Part shown: piece by piece, positions 1,827-58,451 of the stretch
Layout: the number at the start of each line of letters is the position of its first letter
How positions within the stretch are numbered: the first letter of the stretch is position 1
Origin: Lachnospiraceae bacterium
GTDB lineage: Bacteria; Bacillota; Clostridia; Lachnospirales; Lachnospiraceae
Length of the DNA stretch: 64,000 bases
Direction: 5' to 3'
Assembly (NCBI GenBank): GCA_015057555.1
Contig: SVEC01000004.1
Location: 1 to 64,000, forward strand
Position numbers and translations under genes: made by a program
The notes under the pieces: model-generated
The model's input: the letters and a program-made list of their open reading frames with translations, nothing else
Database searches by the model: none
Told to the model about the DNA's origin: nothing

Positions 1827-1940
1827 ATTTCCTTCAAACGGATTCCTTCGCCAAATTAAAATTTGTATTACTAATTATAAATCCCCCACCCCTAAAAGAC
1901 AACTCCCAAAGCCAACAAATATCCCCATCACCGAAGGTGA

Positions 1941-2186
1941 TAGTGATGGTTGACCCGGTACATAGGAATATGTGCCAAATATTTAAGTATACAGATTATG
2001 AAGGGGAATAGCGCCAATACACTTTCGTACGGGCGCGACAGGGAAAAGCGAAGACGACCGTCGTAGTGTCGTCGGAGCTTTTGCCCTAGGCAGCCCGGGT
2101 ATACTGTAAAAACGCCCCCTTCATAATCGTCCAGATAAAGAAAACCCGGCACATATTCCTATGTACCGGGGATACAACCATCACTA
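1941..2186 (-). repeat. Structured palindromic element, copy 1 (after glgP)
   Basis: This 246-bp element starts 18 bases after the glgP stop, read on the minus strand. The outer inverted repeat TAGTGATGGTTG (1941-1952 with 2175-2186) is followed inward by the terminator arm and its inverted copy. The inner stem is GATTATGAAGGGG pairing with CCCCTTCATAATC (1994-2006 with 2116-2128). A central hairpin pairs GACGAC with GTCGTC (2053-2058 with 2068-2073), beside a conserved CTGCCTAGGG core. Copies 2 and 3 share the core and the architecture but have different paired sequences. There is no coding frame. The right edge abuts another small hairpin, ATCACC-GAA-GGTGAT. Confidence 0.8.
2145..2171 (-). 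terminator. glgP intrinsic terminator
   Basis: On the minus strand CCCGGTACATA pairs with TATGTGCCGGG (one G-U) around a GGAA loop, followed by TTTTCTTT. It also forms the 5' arm of structured element copy 1. Confidence 0.8.
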
Positions 2187-2204: not shown

Positions 2205-4643
2205 TTAGAGCTTAACCTCTACCTTCTCAAGCTTCCAGATCTCCTGAGCATACTGCTCGATAGTTCTGTCAGATGAGAACTTACCAGCACAAGCTGTGTT
2301 AAGCATAGCCATCTGAGCCCAAGCTGTCTTATCCTTGTAAGCCTCATTTACTCTCTTCTGAGCATCTGCATAAGAATCGAAATCCTTAAGAGTGAAGTAA
2401 ACATCCTGCTTAACAAGTGTATCGTAGAGAGGTCTGAATAAATCCTTATCCTCTGAGTAAGTACCATCAACTAACTGATCAAGTACCTTCTTAACCTTTG
2501 GATTTGAATTATAAACGTCCATTGGGTAGTAACCACCCTCACGCTCATACTTCATAACCTCCTCAGCTGAAAGACCGAAGATAAATGCGTTATCAACGCC
2601 AACCTCCTCAACGATCTCAACGTTAGCACCATCCATAGTACCAAGAGTAGGAGCACCATTTAACATGAACTTCATGTTACCAGTACCTGAAGCCTCTCTT
2701 GAAGCTGTAGAAATCTGCTCTGAAACGTCAGCTGCTGCAAAGATAATCTCTGCATTTGAAACTCTATAGTTCTCAATGAATACAACCTTAATCTTGCCCT
2801 TGATTGAAGCATCGTTATTAACTACATCAGCTACAGCGTTGATAAGCTTGATAGTAAGCTTAGCAGTCTTGTAACCAGCTGCTGCCTTAGCACCAAAGAT
2901 AAATGTAGTTGGAGTGAAATCCATATCTGGATTAGCCTTTAACTCATTGTAAAGGTGCATAATGTGAAGGATGTTAAGCTGCTGTCTCTTGTACTCGTGG
3001 AGTCTCTTAACCTGTACGTCGAAGATTGAGTTAGGGTCAACCTCGATACCGTTGTGCTCCTTAATGTACTCAGCAAGACGAACCTTGTTCTTATACTTAA
3101 TATCCATGAACTCCTTCTGTGACTTCTTCTCAGTTACGTGCTTCTTAAGCTTAGCCATCTGAGAAAGGTCAGTAATCCAACCATCACCGATCTTCTTAGT
3201 TACCCAAGAAGCGAGAAGTGGGTTACCATGGAGAAGGAATCTTCTCTGAGTAATACCATTTGTCTTATTATTAAACTGGTCTGGTCTCATCTGGTAGAAA
3301 TCCTTAAGCTCTCTCTTCTTAAGAATCTCTGTATGAAGCTGAGCAACACCATTTACAGAGTAGCTACCTGCGATTGCAAGGTGAGCCATCTTAACCTGAC
3401 CATCGTAAAGAATAGCCATATTCTTAACCTTATTCTGGTCACCTGGATAAGTGTCCTCGATAAGCTTAACGTATCTTCTATTAATCTCGTCAACGATCTG
3501 ATAGATTCTTGGAAGAAGTCTCTGGAAGAGGTCGATAGGCCACTTCTCAAGAGCCTCAGCCATAATAGTGTGGTTAGTGTAAGCACAAGTTCTGCAAGTG
3601 ATATCCCATGCCTCATCCCACTCTAAGCACTCCTCGTCAACAAGGATTCTCATAAGCTCTGCAACTGTTACAGTTGGATGTGTATCGTTAAGCTGGAATG
3701 TTACCTTGTTAGGAAGGTCTCTAATATCTGCATTTGCCTCCTTAAACTTAAGGATTGCTCTCTGGATAGAAGCTGATACGAAGAAGTACTGCTGCTTAAG
3801 TCTAAGCTCCTTACCTGAGTAGTGATTATCATTTGGATAAAGAACCTCTACAAGGTTTCTAGCAAGGTTCTGCTGCTCAACAGCCTTTTGGTAGTCACCC
3901 TTATCAAATGAATTAAGGTTGAACTCCTGAATAGCCTCAGCATCCCAAATTCTAAGTGTATTTACAACATTGTTGCCATATCCGATTACTGGAAGGTCAT
4001 ATGGTACCGCACGGATTGACTGATAGTCCTCGTGTACGAAATAGTTCTTACCATCTCTACACTCTGTACGCACATATCCACCAAACTTAACCTCTACTGC
4101 GTACTCTGGACGCCTAACCTCAAATGGGTTACCATCCTTTAACCAGTTGTCTGGCTTCTCAATCTGATATCCATCCTCGATTGCCTGCTTGAACATACCA
4201 TAACGGTATCTGATACCACAACCGTATGCTGGGTAGCCAAGTGTAGCAAGTGAATCAAGGAAACAAGCTGCAAGTCTACCAAGACCACCGTTACCAAGTG
4301 CAGCGTCTGGCTCCTGGTCCTCGATGAAGTTAAGGTCAAAGCCCATCTCATCTAAAGCTTCCTTAATCTGCTCATAGCTTGTTAAGTTAATTAAGTTATT
4401 ACCAAGTGCTCTACCCATCAAAAACTCCATTGAAAGGTAGTAAACAGTCTTAGCATTCTTCTCCTCGTACTCCTTATGAGTTGCAATCCAGCGGTCGATG
4501 ATATCATCTCTTACTGCATATGAAACTGCCTGGAATACCTGCTGTGGAGTTGCTTCATCAATAGTTTTTCTGTAAAGGTTCTTAACGTTGTTAATGACCT
4601 CTTTCTTGAAGCTCTCCTTGTCAAAGTCAGCCATCTTCTTCAT
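2205..4643 (-). CDS. glgP: Glycogen/alpha-glucan phosphorylase
   Basis: This 812-residue GT35 enzyme releases glucose-1-phosphate from alpha-1,4-glucans by phosphorolysis. The family signature EASGTGNMKFMLNGAPTLGT near residue 650 carries the lysine that binds pyridoxal phosphate. GNGGLGRLAACFLDSLATL near residue 120 and the glucan-binding QLNDTHP segment are also present. The length is normal for the family. AAGGAGGG lies a few bases upstream of the chosen ATG. It is a single-gene transcript ending at the terminator in structured element 1, with no other glycogen genes in the window. It probably serves turnover of stored glycogen or imported maltodextrins. Confidence 0.97.
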   Translation of the reverse strand: MKKMADFDKESFKKEVINNVKNLYRKTIDEATPQQVFQAVSYAVRDDIIDRWIATHKEYEEKNAKTVYYLSMEFLMGRALGNNLINLTSYEQIKEALDEMGFDLNFIEDQEPDAALGNGGLGRLAACFLDSLATLGYPAYGCGIRYRYGMFKQAIEDGYQIEKPDNWLKDGNPFEVRRPEYAVEVKFGGYVRTECRDGKNYFVHEDYQSIRAVPYDLPVIGYGNNVVNTLRIWDAEAIQEFNLNSFDKGDYQKAVEQQNLARNLVEVLYPNDNHYSGKELRLKQQYFFVSASIQRAILKFKEANADIRDLPNKVTFQLNDTHPTVTVAELMRILVDEECLEWDEAWDITCRTCAYTNHTIMAEALEKWPIDLFQRLLPRIYQIVDEINRRYVKLIEDTYPGDQNKVKNMAILYDGQVKMAHLAIAGSYSVNGVAQLHTEILKKRELKDFYQMRPDQFNNKTNGITQRRFLLHGNPLLASWVTKKIGDGWITDLSQMAKLKKHVTEKKSQKEFMDIKYKNKVRLAEYIKEHNGIEVDPNSIFDVQVKRLHEYKRQQLNILHIMHLYNELKANPDMDFTPTTFIFGAKAAAGYKTAKLTIKLINAVADVVNNDASIKGKIKVVFIENYRVSNAEIIFAAADVSEQISTASREASGTGNMKFMLNGAPTLGTMDGANVEIVEEVGVDNAFIFGLSAEEVMKYEREGGYYPMDVYNSNPKVKKVLDQLVDGTYSEDKDLFRPLYDTLVKQDVYFTLKDFDSYADAQKRVNEAYKDKTAWAQMAMLNTACAGKFSSDRTIEQYAQEIWKLEKVEVKL

Positions 4644-44358: not shown

Positions 44359-44601
44359 GTGAAGGATGTGCCGGTACATACACTTGTGCCTTTATTTAAA
44401 GTATCAGTTTGGATAAGGGGTATTGCGATACTAAATTTTATTCCGGCCGCGACAGTGGTCGGGACTAAGCTGACCGCCTTAAGTGTCAGCGTGGACCGAC
44501 CCTAGGCAGGCCGGCTAACAAAGTATGAACGCACCCCTTATCCAAACGTGACAATAGAAAAACCTCGGCACAAGTGTATGTACCGAGGTCACATCCTTCA
44601 C
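44359..44601 (-). repeat. Structured palindromic element, copy 2
   Basis: This 243-bp element begins 3 bases after the stop of the 67-residue gene, read on the minus strand. The outer repeat GTGAAGGATGTG (44359-44370 with 44590-44601) is followed by the terminator arm and its inverted copy. The inner stem is GTTTGGATAAGGGG with CCCCTTATCCAAAC. The central hairpin pairs GCTGAC with GTCAGC around ACTTAAGGCG, beside GCCTGCCTAGGG and GTCGCGGCCGG. Stems differ in sequence from copies 1 and 3 but keep pairing; the core is conserved. Confidence 0.8.
44563..44588 (-). terminator. Intrinsic terminator of the 67-residue protein gene
   Basis: Minus-strand CCTCGGTACA pairs with TGTGCCGAGG (one U-G), then TTTTTCT. 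It is the 5' arm of structured element copy 2. Confidence 0.8.
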
Positions 44602-44604
44602 CAT

Positions 44605-44808
44605 CTAGTCATCCAGATAATCATCATCCTTCTCACCAAGAGTTCCATTTTTTGCTTTGTTAATGAAAATACTCAGTGACACAAAGAAATATGCTAATAC
44701 CAGGATAACAAATATAACTCCTAACCAGTAGATGGCATCAAAAAGCACATCTGCCAGTCCTTCAATTTTTGTTAGTCCCTCAAGACCATCTATTAATGTA
44801 TCTCCCAT
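44605..44808 (-). CDS. 67-residue single-span membrane protein
   Basis: The protein has an amphipathic N-terminus (GDTLIDGLEGLTKIEGLADV), one long hydrophobic helix (about 28-50) and an acidic C-terminal tail (GEKDDDYLDD). No family is recognised; it lacks the features of OadG-type decarboxylase subunits. It stands alone after gyrA, and its terminator is part of structured element copy 2. Confidence 0.6.
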   Translation of the reverse strand: MGDTLIDGLEGLTKIEGLADVLFDAIYWLGVIFVILVLAYFFVSLSIFINKAKNGTLGEKDDDYLDD

Positions 44809-54841: not shown

Positions 54842-56098
54842 ATGTTTTTAACTCAAGCAGATGGACTAATCATGGGTCCCATTTCCAAGCTTCTTGGATT
54901 ATTGTTTAGTGGAATCTATGAATTGTCAAGTAATCTAGGTATAGTAAGTATTGGTTTATCTATCATAATATTTACTATAGTAGTTCGTATGTGTCTGCTT
55001 CCATCTATGTTCAAGCAGACAAGATCATCAAAGATTCAGCAGTTTATACAACCTGAAATCAATAAGATTAACAAAAAATATAGAAACAAAAAAGACCAGG
55101 AATCTATGATGAAGCAGCAGGCTGAGGTCAAAGAGATTCAGAGCAAGTATGGTGTTAATTTAACAGGCGGTTGTCTTGTATCTATTATTCAGATGCCAAT
55201 CTTTTTTGCTCTCTATAATGTTATTCAGAACATACCAGCATATGTTAGTAAGGTTAAGGATTTATACCTTCCTATAGCAAATGCAATTAAAAGTGATAGC
55301 ACAGCTTTTCAGAAGCTTACAGAGTACAAGGAATCAGTTAAGACATTAAATGTTATTAACTTAAATAATAGTGATACCAATACTATTATTGATGTACTTG
55401 CAAAGTTTGATAATGGCTCCTGGGAGGCATACAAGGATTTATTAGGAAATAATGGTGCAGTTGTTGATGCTATTAATAGCAACATGGGCCAGATTACAGA
55501 TGTTTACAGCTTTATAGGTGGTATTAACCTTGCTGAGGCACCTGGATTTGCTCTCACAGCAGCATTTATAATTCCTGTTCTGTCATTGGTATTCCAGTAC
55601 TTAAGTTTAAATGCAACATCTATGCAAAGTTCTGGTGATCCAACAGCAGATGCAACTATGAAGTCTATGAAGACTATGATGAAGGTGTTCCCTCTTATGA
55701 CATTCTTCGTAACTGTTAATGTTCCAGCCGGTGTTGGTTTATACTGGGCTATGGGTTCATTAATAAGCTTTGTTTCATCAAAGTCTATCCATGCATATTT
55801 CAAACATGCAGATATGGAGAAGATTGTTGAGAAGTCTAAGGAAAAGGCAGCGAAGAAGATTGAAAAGCGTAAGGCTTCCGGTAAGAAGACCTTTATGGAA
55901 AAGATGCAGGAGGCAGCTTACGGTCAGCAGGAAAATACCACTCCTTCAAGAAATAGTGTAGCAAGCACTAGCTTGAAGAATTATTCATCATCAACTATGA
56001 AGTCACAAAATAGCGGAGTTAAATATAGAGAGGGTAGTCTTGCTGCTAAGGCAAATGCTCTTCAGAAGTTTAACGATAATAACGGAGGAAAGAACTAG
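54842..56098 (+). CDS. yidC: Membrane protein insertase YidC/SpoIIIJ
   Basis: This 418-residue Gram-positive-type insertase lacks the large periplasmic domain. Five membrane helices form the core, with a positively charged hairpin (MLPSMFKQTRSSKI region) after the second. GGCLVSIIQMPIFFALYNVI and VPAGVGLYWAMGSLISF are conserved helices. A central loop of about 90 residues between helices is longer than usual. The long basic C-terminal tail probably contacts ribosomes. The stop codon overlaps the jag GTG by one base. Confidence 0.95.
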   Translation: MFLTQADGLIMGPISKLLGLLFSGIYELSSNLGIVSIGLSIIIFTIVVRMCLLPSMFKQTRSSKIQQFIQPEINKINKKYRNKKDQESMMKQQAEVKEIQSKYGVNLTGGCLVSIIQMPIFFALYNVIQNIPAYVSKVKDLYLPIANAIKSDSTAFQKLTEYKESVKTLNVINLNNSDTNTIIDVLAKFDNGSWEAYKDLLGNNGAVVDAINSNMGQITDVYSFIGGINLAEAPGFALTAAFIIPVLSLVFQYLSLNATSMQSSGDPTADATMKSMKTMMKVFPLMTFFVTVNVPAGVGLYWAMGSLISFVSSKSIHAYFKHADMEKIVEKSKEKAAKKIEKRKASGKKTFMEKMQEAAYGQQENTTPSRNSVASTSLKNYSSSTMKSQNSGVKYREGSLAAKANALQKFNDNNGGKN

Positions 56099-56724
56099 TG
56101 GAATTTAAAGAGTTCAAAGCTAAGACAGTTGAAGAGGCTCTTACAAATGCTTCTATGGAGTTAGGAGTAGCTAGTACTGAATTAGATTATGAGGTTGTTG
56201 AGAAGGGTTCATCAGGTTTCCTTGGAATCGGAGCTAAGCCTGCAGTTATTAAGGCTAAGAAGAAGGATTCCTTCCTTGATGAAATCCAGACATATCTTGA
56301 TAATCTTTTCAAGGCTATGGAGGTTGAGTCTAAGGTTACTATAGATTATGACAAGGATGAGGGCGTTATGAATATTGATGTTTCTGGTCCTGATATGGGT
56401 ATCTTAATTGGTAAGCGTGGACAGACCTTAGATGCTCTTCAGTATCTCATCAGCTTATTTGTAAATAAGAAGAGTGAGTCTTATATCAGAGTTAAGCTTG
56501 ATACTGAGAACTATCGTCAGAGAAGAAAGGATACTCTTGAGAATCTTGCAAGAAATATTGCTTTCAAGGTTAAGAGAACAAGAAGATCTTTTACATTAGA
56601 GCCAATGAATCCATATGAGAGAAGAATTATTCATTCATCTCTCCAGAATGATAAGTATGTAGCAACTAGAAGTGAGGGCGAGGAGCCATATCGTAAGGTT
56701 GTTGTATATCTTAAGAAGAATTAA
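56098..56724 (+). CDS. khpB: RNA-binding protein Jag/KhpB
   Basis: The 208-residue protein has an N-terminal Jag domain (EFKAKTVEEALTNASMELG, GSSGFLGIGAKPAVIKA), a KH domain (DMGILIGKRGQTLDALQYL) and a C-terminal R3H domain (MNPYERRIIHSSLQND). It binds RNA with KhpA and affects cell-wall and division functions in streptococci. It uses a GTG start overlapping yidC. The transcript ends at the terminator in structured element 3. Confidence 0.95.
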   Translation: MEFKEFKAKTVEEALTNASMELGVASTELDYEVVEKGSSGFLGIGAKPAVIKAKKKDSFLDEIQTYLDNLFKAMEVESKVTIDYDKDEGVMNIDVSGPDMGILIGKRGQTLDALQYLISLFVNKKSESYIRVKLDTENYRQRRKDTLENLARNIAFKVKRTRRSFTLEPMNPYERRIIHSSLQNDKYVATRSEGEEPYRKVVVYLKKN

Positions 56725-56728
56725 AGTT

Positions 56729-56976
56729 ATAGTGAAAGTTGAATCCCCGGTACAGTATTTGTGCCGGGGTTTTTTTTATGTACGATTAGAAAAGAGATGC
56801 ATATATAGTTGTTCTCCCGGTCTGTCTAGGGGATAAAGCTTCGCCGACACTTAAGACGGTCGGCTGCGCTTCACCCCTGCCGCGCCCGGTTTCAAATTTA
56901 TTGGTGCAATTCTCTTTTCTAATCTGTATATCGAAATATCCCGGCACAAATACTGTACCGGGACAACTTTCACTAT
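56729..56976 (+). repeat. Structured palindromic element, copy 3 (after jag)
   Basis: This 248-bp element starts 4 bases after the jag stop, read on the plus strand. The outer repeat ATAGTGAAAGTTG (56729-56741 with 56964-56976) is followed by the terminator arm and its inverted copy. The inner stem is GATTAGAAAAGAGA with TCTCTTTTCTAATC. The central hairpin pairs GCCGAC with GTCGGC around ACTTAAGACG, beside CTGTCTAGGGG and CCCCTGCCGCGCCCGG. A segment TAATCTGTATA before the closing arm is shared with copy 1. It lies at the junction with the inverted mnmE segment. Confidence 0.82.
56745..56777 (+). terminator. jag intrinsic terminator
   Basis: CCCCGGTACA and TGTGCCGGGG (one G-U) form the stem, followed by eight T residues. 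It is the 5' arm of structured element copy 3. Confidence 0.9.
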
Positions 56977-57065
56977 GGCCTCTGGCCATATTAATTCTTT
57001 CAGTATACAATTGACCTTGTGGCACGAAATGCAAAATAATGGCACAAATTGGACTTGATATGATG

Positions 57066-58451
57066 TTACTTTCCCATGCAAAATTCTGAAAAGATTTTGT
57101 TGACTAAGTCGTCTTCTAACTCTTCACCAATTATCTTTCCAAGGGAAGCATAGGCTGCCATAAGGTCGATGGTGAGGAAGTCTTCCCCCATCATAAGTTG
57201 GATGCTTTCAAGGACTTTGTTTAGACTTTCTCTTGTTTCATAGAGCAGAGCCTTATGTCTTTGGTTTGTGATGTATATTTCGTCGTTGTAATTTAATTCG
57301 TTGTTAAAGAACATTTCTTTTAGGAGGGTGTGTAGGTTTTCCTTGCCTGTGCCCTCCTTTGCTGATATTTCAAGGATTTTTGTATTTATGGTGTTAGTTA
57401 TCAACACTTTATCCACAACAGTTTCCAGGTCGTTTTTATTGATAAGAGATATGGTCTTTTTGTTCTTTATTTTATCCATTATATTGAAATCGTTTTCATC
57501 TAGTGTGGTGGTTCCATCAACGATATATAGGATAAGGTCTGCATCATCGATAGAGGCTATTGCCTTGTCCACTCCGATTTTCTCTACAGTATCAGATGTA
57601 GTACGGATTCCTGCGGTGTCCACTATATTTAGTGTAATACCGTCTATATTGATATATTCCTCAAGAGTGTCTCTAGTGGTACCTTCAATGTCCGTAACTA
57701 TGGCTCTCTCTTCACCTAAAAGCATGTTTAAAACAGAGGATTTTCCAGCATTTGGACGTCCTACTATGGCAGTCCTTATACCCTCTTTGATAATACGTCC
57801 GTCAGAGCTTGATTTTATTAGCTTTTCCACAGTTATCAACATGTTATCCACAACATCTTCTAATTGCTGTGGAAATTCATCTAAGGAGTAGTTTTCAGGG
57901 TCATCAAGGGCTGATTCTATATAGGCTATGTTATATAAAAGCTTCTCTCTCATATTCTTAATTAGCTTAGTTAGTTCACCTGAAAGTTGTTTAAGAGAGG
58001 ACTTTGCTGCCATATCATTTTTAGCATGAATTAAATCCATAACAGATTCTGCCTGGGACATATCTATACGTCCGTTTAAGAAGGCACGCTTCGTAAATTC
58101 TCCTGGTTCTGCAGGTCTTGCTCCAAGTCTAATAATCAAATCAAAGATTCTTTTTAATACAGTTATTCCACCATGACAGTCAAGCTCCACCACCTCCTCT
58201 GCAGTGTAGGTTCCAGGAGCACGCATAACAAGTGCAATTGCCTCGTCGTAGATTTCTCCCTCGTAGCTTATTACACCGTAAGCTGCAGTGTAGGTTTCCA
58301 TAGTAGCTATGGATTTGTTTTTATTCTTAGGGATGAAAAGCTTGTCTGCAATAGATAAGGCTTCATCACCACTTATTCTAATTATTCCAATGCCAGAATT
58401 GCCCATTCCTGTGGCAATGGCTGCGATTGTGTCTTTCATTTTTACCTCCAA
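57066..58451 (-). CDS. mnmE: tRNA modification GTPase MnmE
   Basis: The 461-residue GTPase works with MnmG to form (carboxymethyl)aminomethyl-uridine at tRNA wobble positions. It has the N-terminal folate-binding domain (DTIAAIATGMGNSGIGIIRI), the inserted G domain (GRPNAGKSSVLNMLLGE, DIEGTTRDT, DTAGIRT, NKND) and the terminal CMGK motif. TTTTGGAGGTAAAA precedes the start. It is on the minus strand although its usual neighbours jag, mnmG and rsmG are on the plus strand. It follows a fic gene by 17 bases and is probably cotranscribed with it. Confidence 0.97.
   Translation of the reverse strand: MEVKMKDTIAAIATGMGNSGIGIIRISGDEALSIADKLFIPKNKNKSIATMETYTAAYGVISYEGEIYDEAIALVMRAPGTYTAEEVVELDCHGGITVLKRIFDLIIRLGARPAEPGEFTKRAFLNGRIDMSQAESVMDLIHAKNDMAAKSSLKQLSGELTKLIKNMREKLLYNIAYIESALDDPENYSLDEFPQQLEDVVDNMLITVEKLIKSSSDGRIIKEGIRTAIVGRPNAGKSSVLNMLLGEERAIVTDIEGTTRDTLEEYINIDGITLNIVDTAGIRTTSDTVEKIGVDKAIASIDDADLILYIVDGTTTLDENDFNIMDKIKNKKTISLINKNDLETVVDKVLITNTINTKILEISAKEGTGKENLHTLLKEMFFNNELNYNDEIYITNQRHKALLYETRESLNKVLESIQLMMGEDFLTIDLMAAYASLGKIIGEELEDDLVNKIFSEFCMGK

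Follow-up and report, generated by a model that had tools for sequence, protein, structure and literature searches.

The 64,000-nucleotide stretch of Lachnospiraceae DNA analysed here (the window) holds three elements of 243–248 bp whose stems differ in sequence from copy to copy and still pair, which raises the question of whether these stems are kept as the fold of an RNA or as palindromic DNA. The original prediction had offered both readings, selected RNA structure and a palindrome-generating mechanism. All three copies are present exactly where it had placed them, at 1941–2186 and 44359–44601 on the minus strand and at 56729–56976 on the plus strand (c1, c2 and c3 below), and its description of the conserved core, of all three central stems and of the inner stems holds. 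The 248-nt copy is predicted to fold end to end at −127.1 kcal/mol (z = −13.2 against 200 shuffles). Each copy starts 3 to 18 bases past a stop codon, the genes ending before them being glycogen phosphorylase (c1), a 67-aa membrane-like ORF (c2) and khpB/jag (c3).

All three copies in the window belong to the long form of a larger family. In the orientation of the core, each runs from an outer arm through an inner stem, the asymmetric core, the second strand of the inner stem and the inverted outer arm to a small hairpin. The outer arm combines a stretch resembling TAGTGAAAGTTG with a hairpin, CCGGTACA..TGTGCCGG, and its T run; the left outer arm of the long form is a terminator-like hairpin followed by Ts. 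The core, CTGYCTAGGG ... CCCTGYCGCG, is conserved and asymmetric and lies around a hairpin GAC-ACTNNRACG-GTC. The small terminal hairpin of the long form (e.g. TGGCCTCTGGCCA or CACCTTCGGTG) is found just beyond the span originally described. The features of the three copies are as follows.

56729..56976, plus strand: long copy c3, between khpB/jag (56098–56724, plus) and mnmE (57066–58451, minus), neighbours by Pfam
56745..56769, plus strand: c3 left outer arm hairpin CCCCGGTACA-GTATT-TGTGCCGGGG, then T8; terminator-like, 3' of the upstream gene
56784..56801, plus strand: c3 inner stem, left strand GATTAGAAAAGAGATGCA
56791..56914, plus strand: c3 part common to short copies (covariance model R1, 110.4 bits)
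56822..56831, plus strand: c3 conserved asymmetric core, left half CTGTCTAGGG
56843..56864, plus strand: c3 apical hairpin GCCGAC-ACTTAAGACG-GTCGGC
56874..56884, plus strand: c3 conserved asymmetric core, right half CCCCTGCCGCG
56905..56924, plus strand: c3 inner stem, right strand
56940..56976, plus strand: c3 right outer arm, the inverted left hairpin including its loop; sense reading without a T run
56974..56990, plus strand: c3 small 3' hairpin TATGGCC-TCT-GGCCATA
1941..2186, minus strand: long copy c1, 3' of glycogen phosphorylase (2205–4643, minus), neighbour by Pfam
2145..2170, minus strand: c1 terminator-like hairpin CCCGGTACATAGGAATATGTGCCGGG and TTTTCTTTAT
2004..2123, minus strand: c1 part common to short copies (covariance model, 102.6 bits)
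1925..1943, minus strand: c1 small 3' hairpin CTATCACC-TTC-GGTGATGG
44359..44601, minus strand: long copy c2, 3 nt past the stop codon of the 67-aa membrane-like ORF (44605–44808, minus)
44561..44590, minus strand: c2 terminator-like hairpin GACCTCGGTACATACACTTGTGCCGAGGTT and TTTCTATTGT
44373..44390, plus strand: c2 right arm read antisense, hairpin GGTACATACACTTGTGCC and T-rich tail TTTATTTAAA; also terminator-like
44418..44540, minus strand: c2 part common to short copies (covariance model, 90.6 bits)

The genes khpB/jag and mnmE are convergent (56098–58451), with c3 in between. Of the 14 left arms listed for long copies (e.g. 56749–56765), 13 carry a T.G wobble, as GGTACA..TGTGCC or a related form, which stands out in a family otherwise almost without wobbles.

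The pattern CTGYCTAGGG-N30-60-CCCTGYCGCG had 19 exact matches in the 2.5-Mb genome to which the window belongs (the own genome), against 0 for a reversed control pattern. A covariance model, R1, was trained on 20 copies, and the further copies that the original prediction proposed to seek with such a model were indeed found, with 40 copies in the own genome scoring at least 65 bits; of the 47 model rows (E up to 1), the remaining 7 were one partial match and 6 antisense readings of loci already counted. Long outer arms occurred in 9 of the 40, and we take the other 31 as short copies of approximately 121 bp. The outer stem of the short copies is often like AAGGATGTGCG / CGCACATCCT, and very different outer stems are still paired (AAAGGACCAGG / CCTGGTCCTT, AAGAGGTTGCGC / GCGCAACCTCT and AAAAATGGGCG / CGCCCATTTT). 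With a length of 100–250 bp, dispersed intergenic positions, palindromic structure and tens of copies, the family resembles MITE- or ERIC-like elements in these respects. Incomplete copies were also seen: L083 (G000:C20:214551-214627) has no apical hairpin, L103 is another shortened copy, and L054 and L089 are left halves only, ending at CCTAG, beside full copies. The idea that half-elements are traces of an autonomous parent was dropped, two truncated left halves and one internally deleted copy being all that was seen.

In three sister species, G008, G012 and G018, the model gave 29, 44 and 42 matches, respectively (antisense readings may be included), and two weak matches were obtained in G011. 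No match was found in 20 of the 24 congeners searched with the model, nor in any of 16 genomes representing the order's other families. The G011 matches (L053 and L057) have a diverged core (CTGCCTGGGG ... GGCGCG) and perhaps represent an older relative of the family. An order-wide search of 295 genomes, in which 12 candidates were scored in each genome listed, matched the own genome alone; this is a weak negative, since it recovered 12 of the own 40 copies. Two of the carriers correspond to ruminant-gut Lachnospiraceae MAGs, RGIG4033 (roe deer cecum) and RGIG6221 (sheep rectum), as judged from identical match coordinates and scores. Phages and plasmids searched with one short copy as query gave no match, and pattern scans of genome contigs and viral contigs returned chance matches for the most part: among the 115 stretches listed for genome contigs, all of which were also screened with a stricter regular expression, 48 were put to the model and 4 contained the element, while all 85 viral loci put to the model were negative. 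The family consists of long palindromic DNA repeats specific to one clade of gut Lachnospiraceae; literature searches, both general and naming Lachnospiraceae, found no description of them.

The case for a conserved RNA is usually made from covariation, which is very strong here. In an alignment that was fitted to the structure and therefore favours covariation, 94.9% of stem cells were paired, and 23 of 33 pairs were changed on both sides (457 cells). For four of the five measures no shuffle among 500 reached the observed value; for the fifth, further pair types, 17 did. Sliding the stem partners out of register abolished the signal. The original prediction had held that more covarying copies would support an RNA class; such copies do not discriminate, because a palindrome maintained as DNA covaries too.

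The types of mispair are more informative, as G.U pairs are tolerated in RNA helices and A.C pairs are not. Across 80 copies (40 own and 40 distinct copies from relatives, excluding 2 duplicates and the 2 weak G011 matches), isolated non-Watson-Crick pairs comprised 13 G.U, 12 A.C and 32 other against 3193 Watson-Crick pairs. The stems of 15 distinct tRNAs, used as a control, held 30 G.U and 0 A.C against 304 Watson-Crick pairs (G.U:A.C, elements versus tRNAs, Fisher p = 1.2e-5), and five tRNAs of this genus held 11 G.U and 0 A.C against 107. A count on slightly different rows, without two unparsed copies (L071 and L081) and with the two weak G011 matches, gave 13 G.U, 11 A.C and 32 other against 3131. 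In the 15 own tandem copies, where transcription is in one direction, there were 1 G.U, 1 A.C and 8 other against 680 Watson-Crick pairs. One cut pointed the contrary way: the outer stems of the other 25 own (non-tandem) copies, taken as fixed-offset slices, had 5 G.U and 0 A.C against 459, and a recount of all stems of those 25 copies gave 4 G.U and 5 A.C. An unrelated family built in the same way had, in ten copies, 2 G.U, 8 A.C and 9 other against 648. The excess of G.U over A.C on the transcribed strand that marks a selected RNA was therefore absent.

Two further observations concern the level at which pairing is kept. The terminator loop is exactly mirrored in the opposite arm in 7 of 15 long copies, compared with 2 of 182 cross-copy comparisons, and such mirroring is of no use to a terminator hairpin alone. 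Short copies in tandem intergenic regions did not favour the sense orientation (8 sense, 15 antisense, a tally made with rough ORF calls and counting orthologous copies of sister species). A loose count between orthologous copies, noisy in that loops were included and many of the changed positions are loop positions, gave 61 mirrored double changes and 147 one-sided ones (26 G.U, 30 A.C and 91 other), a preponderance that tells against arm copying. From the lack of a G.U excess, the mirrored terminator loops and the lack of a sense preference in short tandem copies, we conclude that the pairing of the arms is kept at the DNA level.

A new structured RNA class, a 3'-UTR element or small RNA held by selection on the RNA, would account for the strong covariation, for the conserved asymmetric internal loop and for the long form being placed in sense after genes. 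It would not lead one to expect G.U at the level of A.C, short tandem copies lying more often antisense than sense, arms that vary between copies, or mirrored terminator loops. Rfam, searched over the whole window, reported three tRNAs only; in the c3 region its sub-threshold matches were confined to the terminator end, with none to the core, and at E up to 0.5 none of six loci fell on an element. No element matched raiA, HEARO/OMEGA or any other Rfam family at the curated threshold. On the G.U/A.C balance, orientation and Rfam, we set the RNA class aside as quite improbable. Of the two readings first offered for the stems, the palindrome-generating mechanism fits, and selected RNA structure does not. 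Very strong covariation without a tRNA-like excess of G.U makes this family a warning case, for which comparing G.U with A.C is a simple control.

The position of the copies relative to genes was examined with a simple ORF caller (its calls at L092, L094 and L101, which differ from those at orthologues, are doubtful). Both neighbours could be called for 37 own copies, which lay between convergent genes in 23 cases, in tandem regions in 14 and between divergent genes in none. The background, taken from the 29 gaps in the window that measure 40 bp or more, was 5 convergent and 5 divergent (Fisher p = 3.7e-4; binomial p = 0.0016). Copies in relatives (n = 41) were distributed similarly, with 26 convergent, 13 tandem and 2 divergent, the last two being orthologous. 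The sense gene lay on the left in all 15 recognised long copies (9 own and 6 in relatives), and in all three window copies the left arm has the GC-rich hairpin and T run at a gene end by which intrinsic terminators are recognised. With its terminator-like hairpin, the long form is likely to serve as the intrinsic terminator of the upstream gene. The left end was also the one nearer to a gene by 32 to 4 in the own genome, a bias that was weaker in relatives (29 to 12) and on which we build no conclusion.

Comparison of sites between species indicated both age and turnover. Among 43 loci from relatives, element-bearing loci matched 15 of the 40 own copies on both flanks; many copies therefore predate the sister species. 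At matched sites, subtype and arms were often unlike between species. One short copy (L016/L031) was nested within the apical part of another. At the L025 site, the element is present in G000 and lies in the opposite orientation, with an inverted core, in G018, while G012 has no core and carries a hairpin GGATGTGC-TT-GCACATCC with the same outer stem. This hairpin may be the original terminator or a remnant after core loss; because it has the same outer stem, an element that inserted into the loop of a terminator and a palindrome that lost its core look alike at this site. Template switching between inverted repeats can invert the centre, according to the available part of one report (PMC8604942). 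In G008, the start of an IS3/IS150-type ORF, identified by eye only, marks an IS-like insertion in the L025-site hairpin (L355, G008:C36, contig end). At the L021 site, the element is absent in G008 and G009; like the nested copy, this hints at movement, although the absence may reflect loss instead of insertion. In place of the element, G008 has an approximately 145-bp multi-hairpin element of another sequence (L379:1971-2115). Inspection by eye revealed no target-site duplication, and there was no clear case of an empty site, the sites without the core being diverged or occupied by another hairpin.

These data bear on a second explanation, in which the elements are bidirectional intrinsic terminators: selection for termination in both directions would keep them palindromic, the core would be a conserved loop, and neither mobility nor arm copying would be involved. 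The placement at gene ends, mostly between convergent genes, is what such terminators would show; the three window copies open with a terminator-like hairpin, c2 has one in antisense as well, and the G012 hairpin at L025 is a simple terminator, bidirectional and sharing the outer stem. If both strands were selected for termination, G.U and A.C would be held down alike, and the scarcity of G.U at convergent sites could also arise in this way. However, the tandem copies, transcribed in one direction, are equally poor in G.U, and termination needs neither a conserved core nor the approximately 100 nt from the outer stem to the tip. The nested copy also speaks against it. Simple TGTGC-loop-GCACANCCTT hairpins with this stem occurred at 0–2 places per genome, in 12 of 25 genomes, and for that reason the shared outer stem is not a common pre-existing terminator. 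Taken together, we regard this explanation as unlikely. The related idea that the outer stem always derives from a pre-existing host terminator, suggested by the L025 site in G012, was rejected given the rarity of the simple hairpins. At the L048 site, G016 has, by eye, a different terminator and no second hairpin, which also counts against it.

Other palindromic families occupy comparable positions in the genus. At the L048 site, a single intergenic region is occupied by the present family in G000, G012 and G018; there, G004 carries an unrelated palindrome of approximately 400 bp, G007 another palindrome made of a terminator hairpin and its inverted copy, and G015, G019, G022 and G024 other repeats, with only simple hairpins in G013, G016 and G020. 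The following loci represent the additional families.

L115:1240-1437 (G007) and L343–L352: G007-type family with core ...GAAATCGAAAACTCGCTTCGCTCAAACAGTTCGATTTC..., unrelated to the present family
L109:2066-2466 (G004) and L334–L342: G004-type (third) family, approximately 400 bp
L381:1342-1500 (G009): fourth core GGTACTTAGCGAGGTACTTTCGAGCTTAGTACC, first seen at the L021 site

The G007-type family was matched in 9 of 25 genomes, reaching at least 33 matches in one genome; its arms vary from copy to copy and stay complementary. The G004-type family was found in 2 of 25 genomes only (G004 and G009). Neither of them had a match in the four main carriers of the present family, while G011 had 12 G007-type matches alongside its two weak matches to the present one. 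The fourth core was matched in 22 of 25 genomes, many matches being partial, with three in the own genome, both listed ones partial. In a quick tree of 22 genomes based on one gene fragment, which does not contain G011, the carriers of each family that it includes formed one clade (4, 8 and 2 genomes; SH-aLRT 99, 99 and 97). Palindromic families unrelated to the present one are thus found in sister clades, and at one site they occupy the very intergenic region in which the present family lies; since several unrelated families were found, palindromic repeats of several kinds are a general feature of the genus.

How the copies might have moved was considered in the light of known folded elements. 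REP/REPIN-like elements, moved as single-stranded hairpins by a RAYT (Y1, HUH) transposase, share with the present family the palindromic form, the intergenic location, the many copies and the conserved mismatches. The search for a mobilising protein, which covered Y1/RAYT, gave no Y1_Tnp match in the four main carriers (assemblies 82–98% complete), the domain being present in 5 of 25 genomes, all outside those four, and a REP/REPIN-like origin is highly improbable. Sites of the attC type, or other folded single-strand sites for a tyrosine recombinase, would likewise have a conserved extrahelical core within a palindrome of variable stem sequence, but the copies here are mostly single and dispersed rather than arranged in cassette arrays, and we give this alternative very little credence.

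We consider it probable that the elements are clade-specific, non-autonomous, ERIC/MITE-like palindromic DNA repeats whose arms are kept complementary at the DNA level. A small palindromic mobile repeat would have been acquired in this clade and would then have spread, presumably by transposition, to about 40 sites dispersed between genes, chiefly at gene 3' ends. The arms, which vary from copy to copy yet remain complementary, would be kept so because one serves as template for the other, either when replication switches template or by conversion between arms at a foldback, and not through selection of an RNA fold. The long form would have been co-opted as a terminator, its left arm supplying the terminator-like hairpin and T run and its right arm being the inverted copy, and the conserved core is a candidate protein recognition site.

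A more speculative extension, which we advance tentatively and think fairly unlikely, is that the element copies its arms as a regular step of its life cycle. Each new copy or turnover would re-synthesise one arm via the foldback, turning the host flank or host terminator into a palindrome around the core, and within one genus, core families of at least four unrelated kinds would compete for the same intergenic sites and found the terminators of neighbouring genes. The family of DNA-maintained repeats proposed above offers a natural system in which the upkeep of palindromes in a genome can be observed. It raises the questions of how each clade of a genus obtained its own palindromic repeat family at gene ends and of how terminators arise from palindromic repeats.

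Among known systems, RUP has a recognisable parent IS, and Rickettsia palindromic elements (RPEs) are known for their location inside genes. The present elements differ from RUP in that a search covering Y1_Tnp gave no parent IS, and from RPEs in lying between genes. The resemblance to RUP, BOX and SPRITE of Streptococcus pneumoniae, described in the available part of PMC10969869 as small intergenic repeats that insert into each other, lies in the nested insertion and in the terminator-like form, which is reported there for SPRITE. RPEs, as far as the accessible text of two sources goes (PMC10969869, PMC2229807), include several palindromic families in one genus, as here. REP/REPIN, presented in the portions available of PMC3116915 and PMC8266576 as multicopy extragenic hairpins, are similar in that respect; the present elements are much longer, and no Y1 transposase, such as REP/REPIN have in RAYT, was found in their carriers. 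Quasipalindrome template-switch mutation, in which one arm is copied onto the other with simultaneous paired changes, has been proposed to create and maintain RNA hairpins (PMC8794818, available part); it is a mutation process and not an element, and in the present case its substrate would be a dispersed family of repeats.

A likeness in size, intergenic location, copy number and stem-loop exists to ERIC/IRU and YPAL/RU-2, which the available part of PMC2229807 gives as intergenic repeats of approximately 127–168 bp, present in many copies and forming a long stem-loop on transcription; this likeness is one of description, and their hosts are enterobacteria whereas ours are Lachnospiraceae. Insofar as these partial sources describe them, ERIC, YPAL, RUP, BOX, SPRITE and RPE are known relatives in kind of the present elements. 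Unlike ERIC and YPAL, the elements described here combine variable yet complementary outer arms with a terminator-bearing long form, and unrelated families of sister clades occupy the same site.
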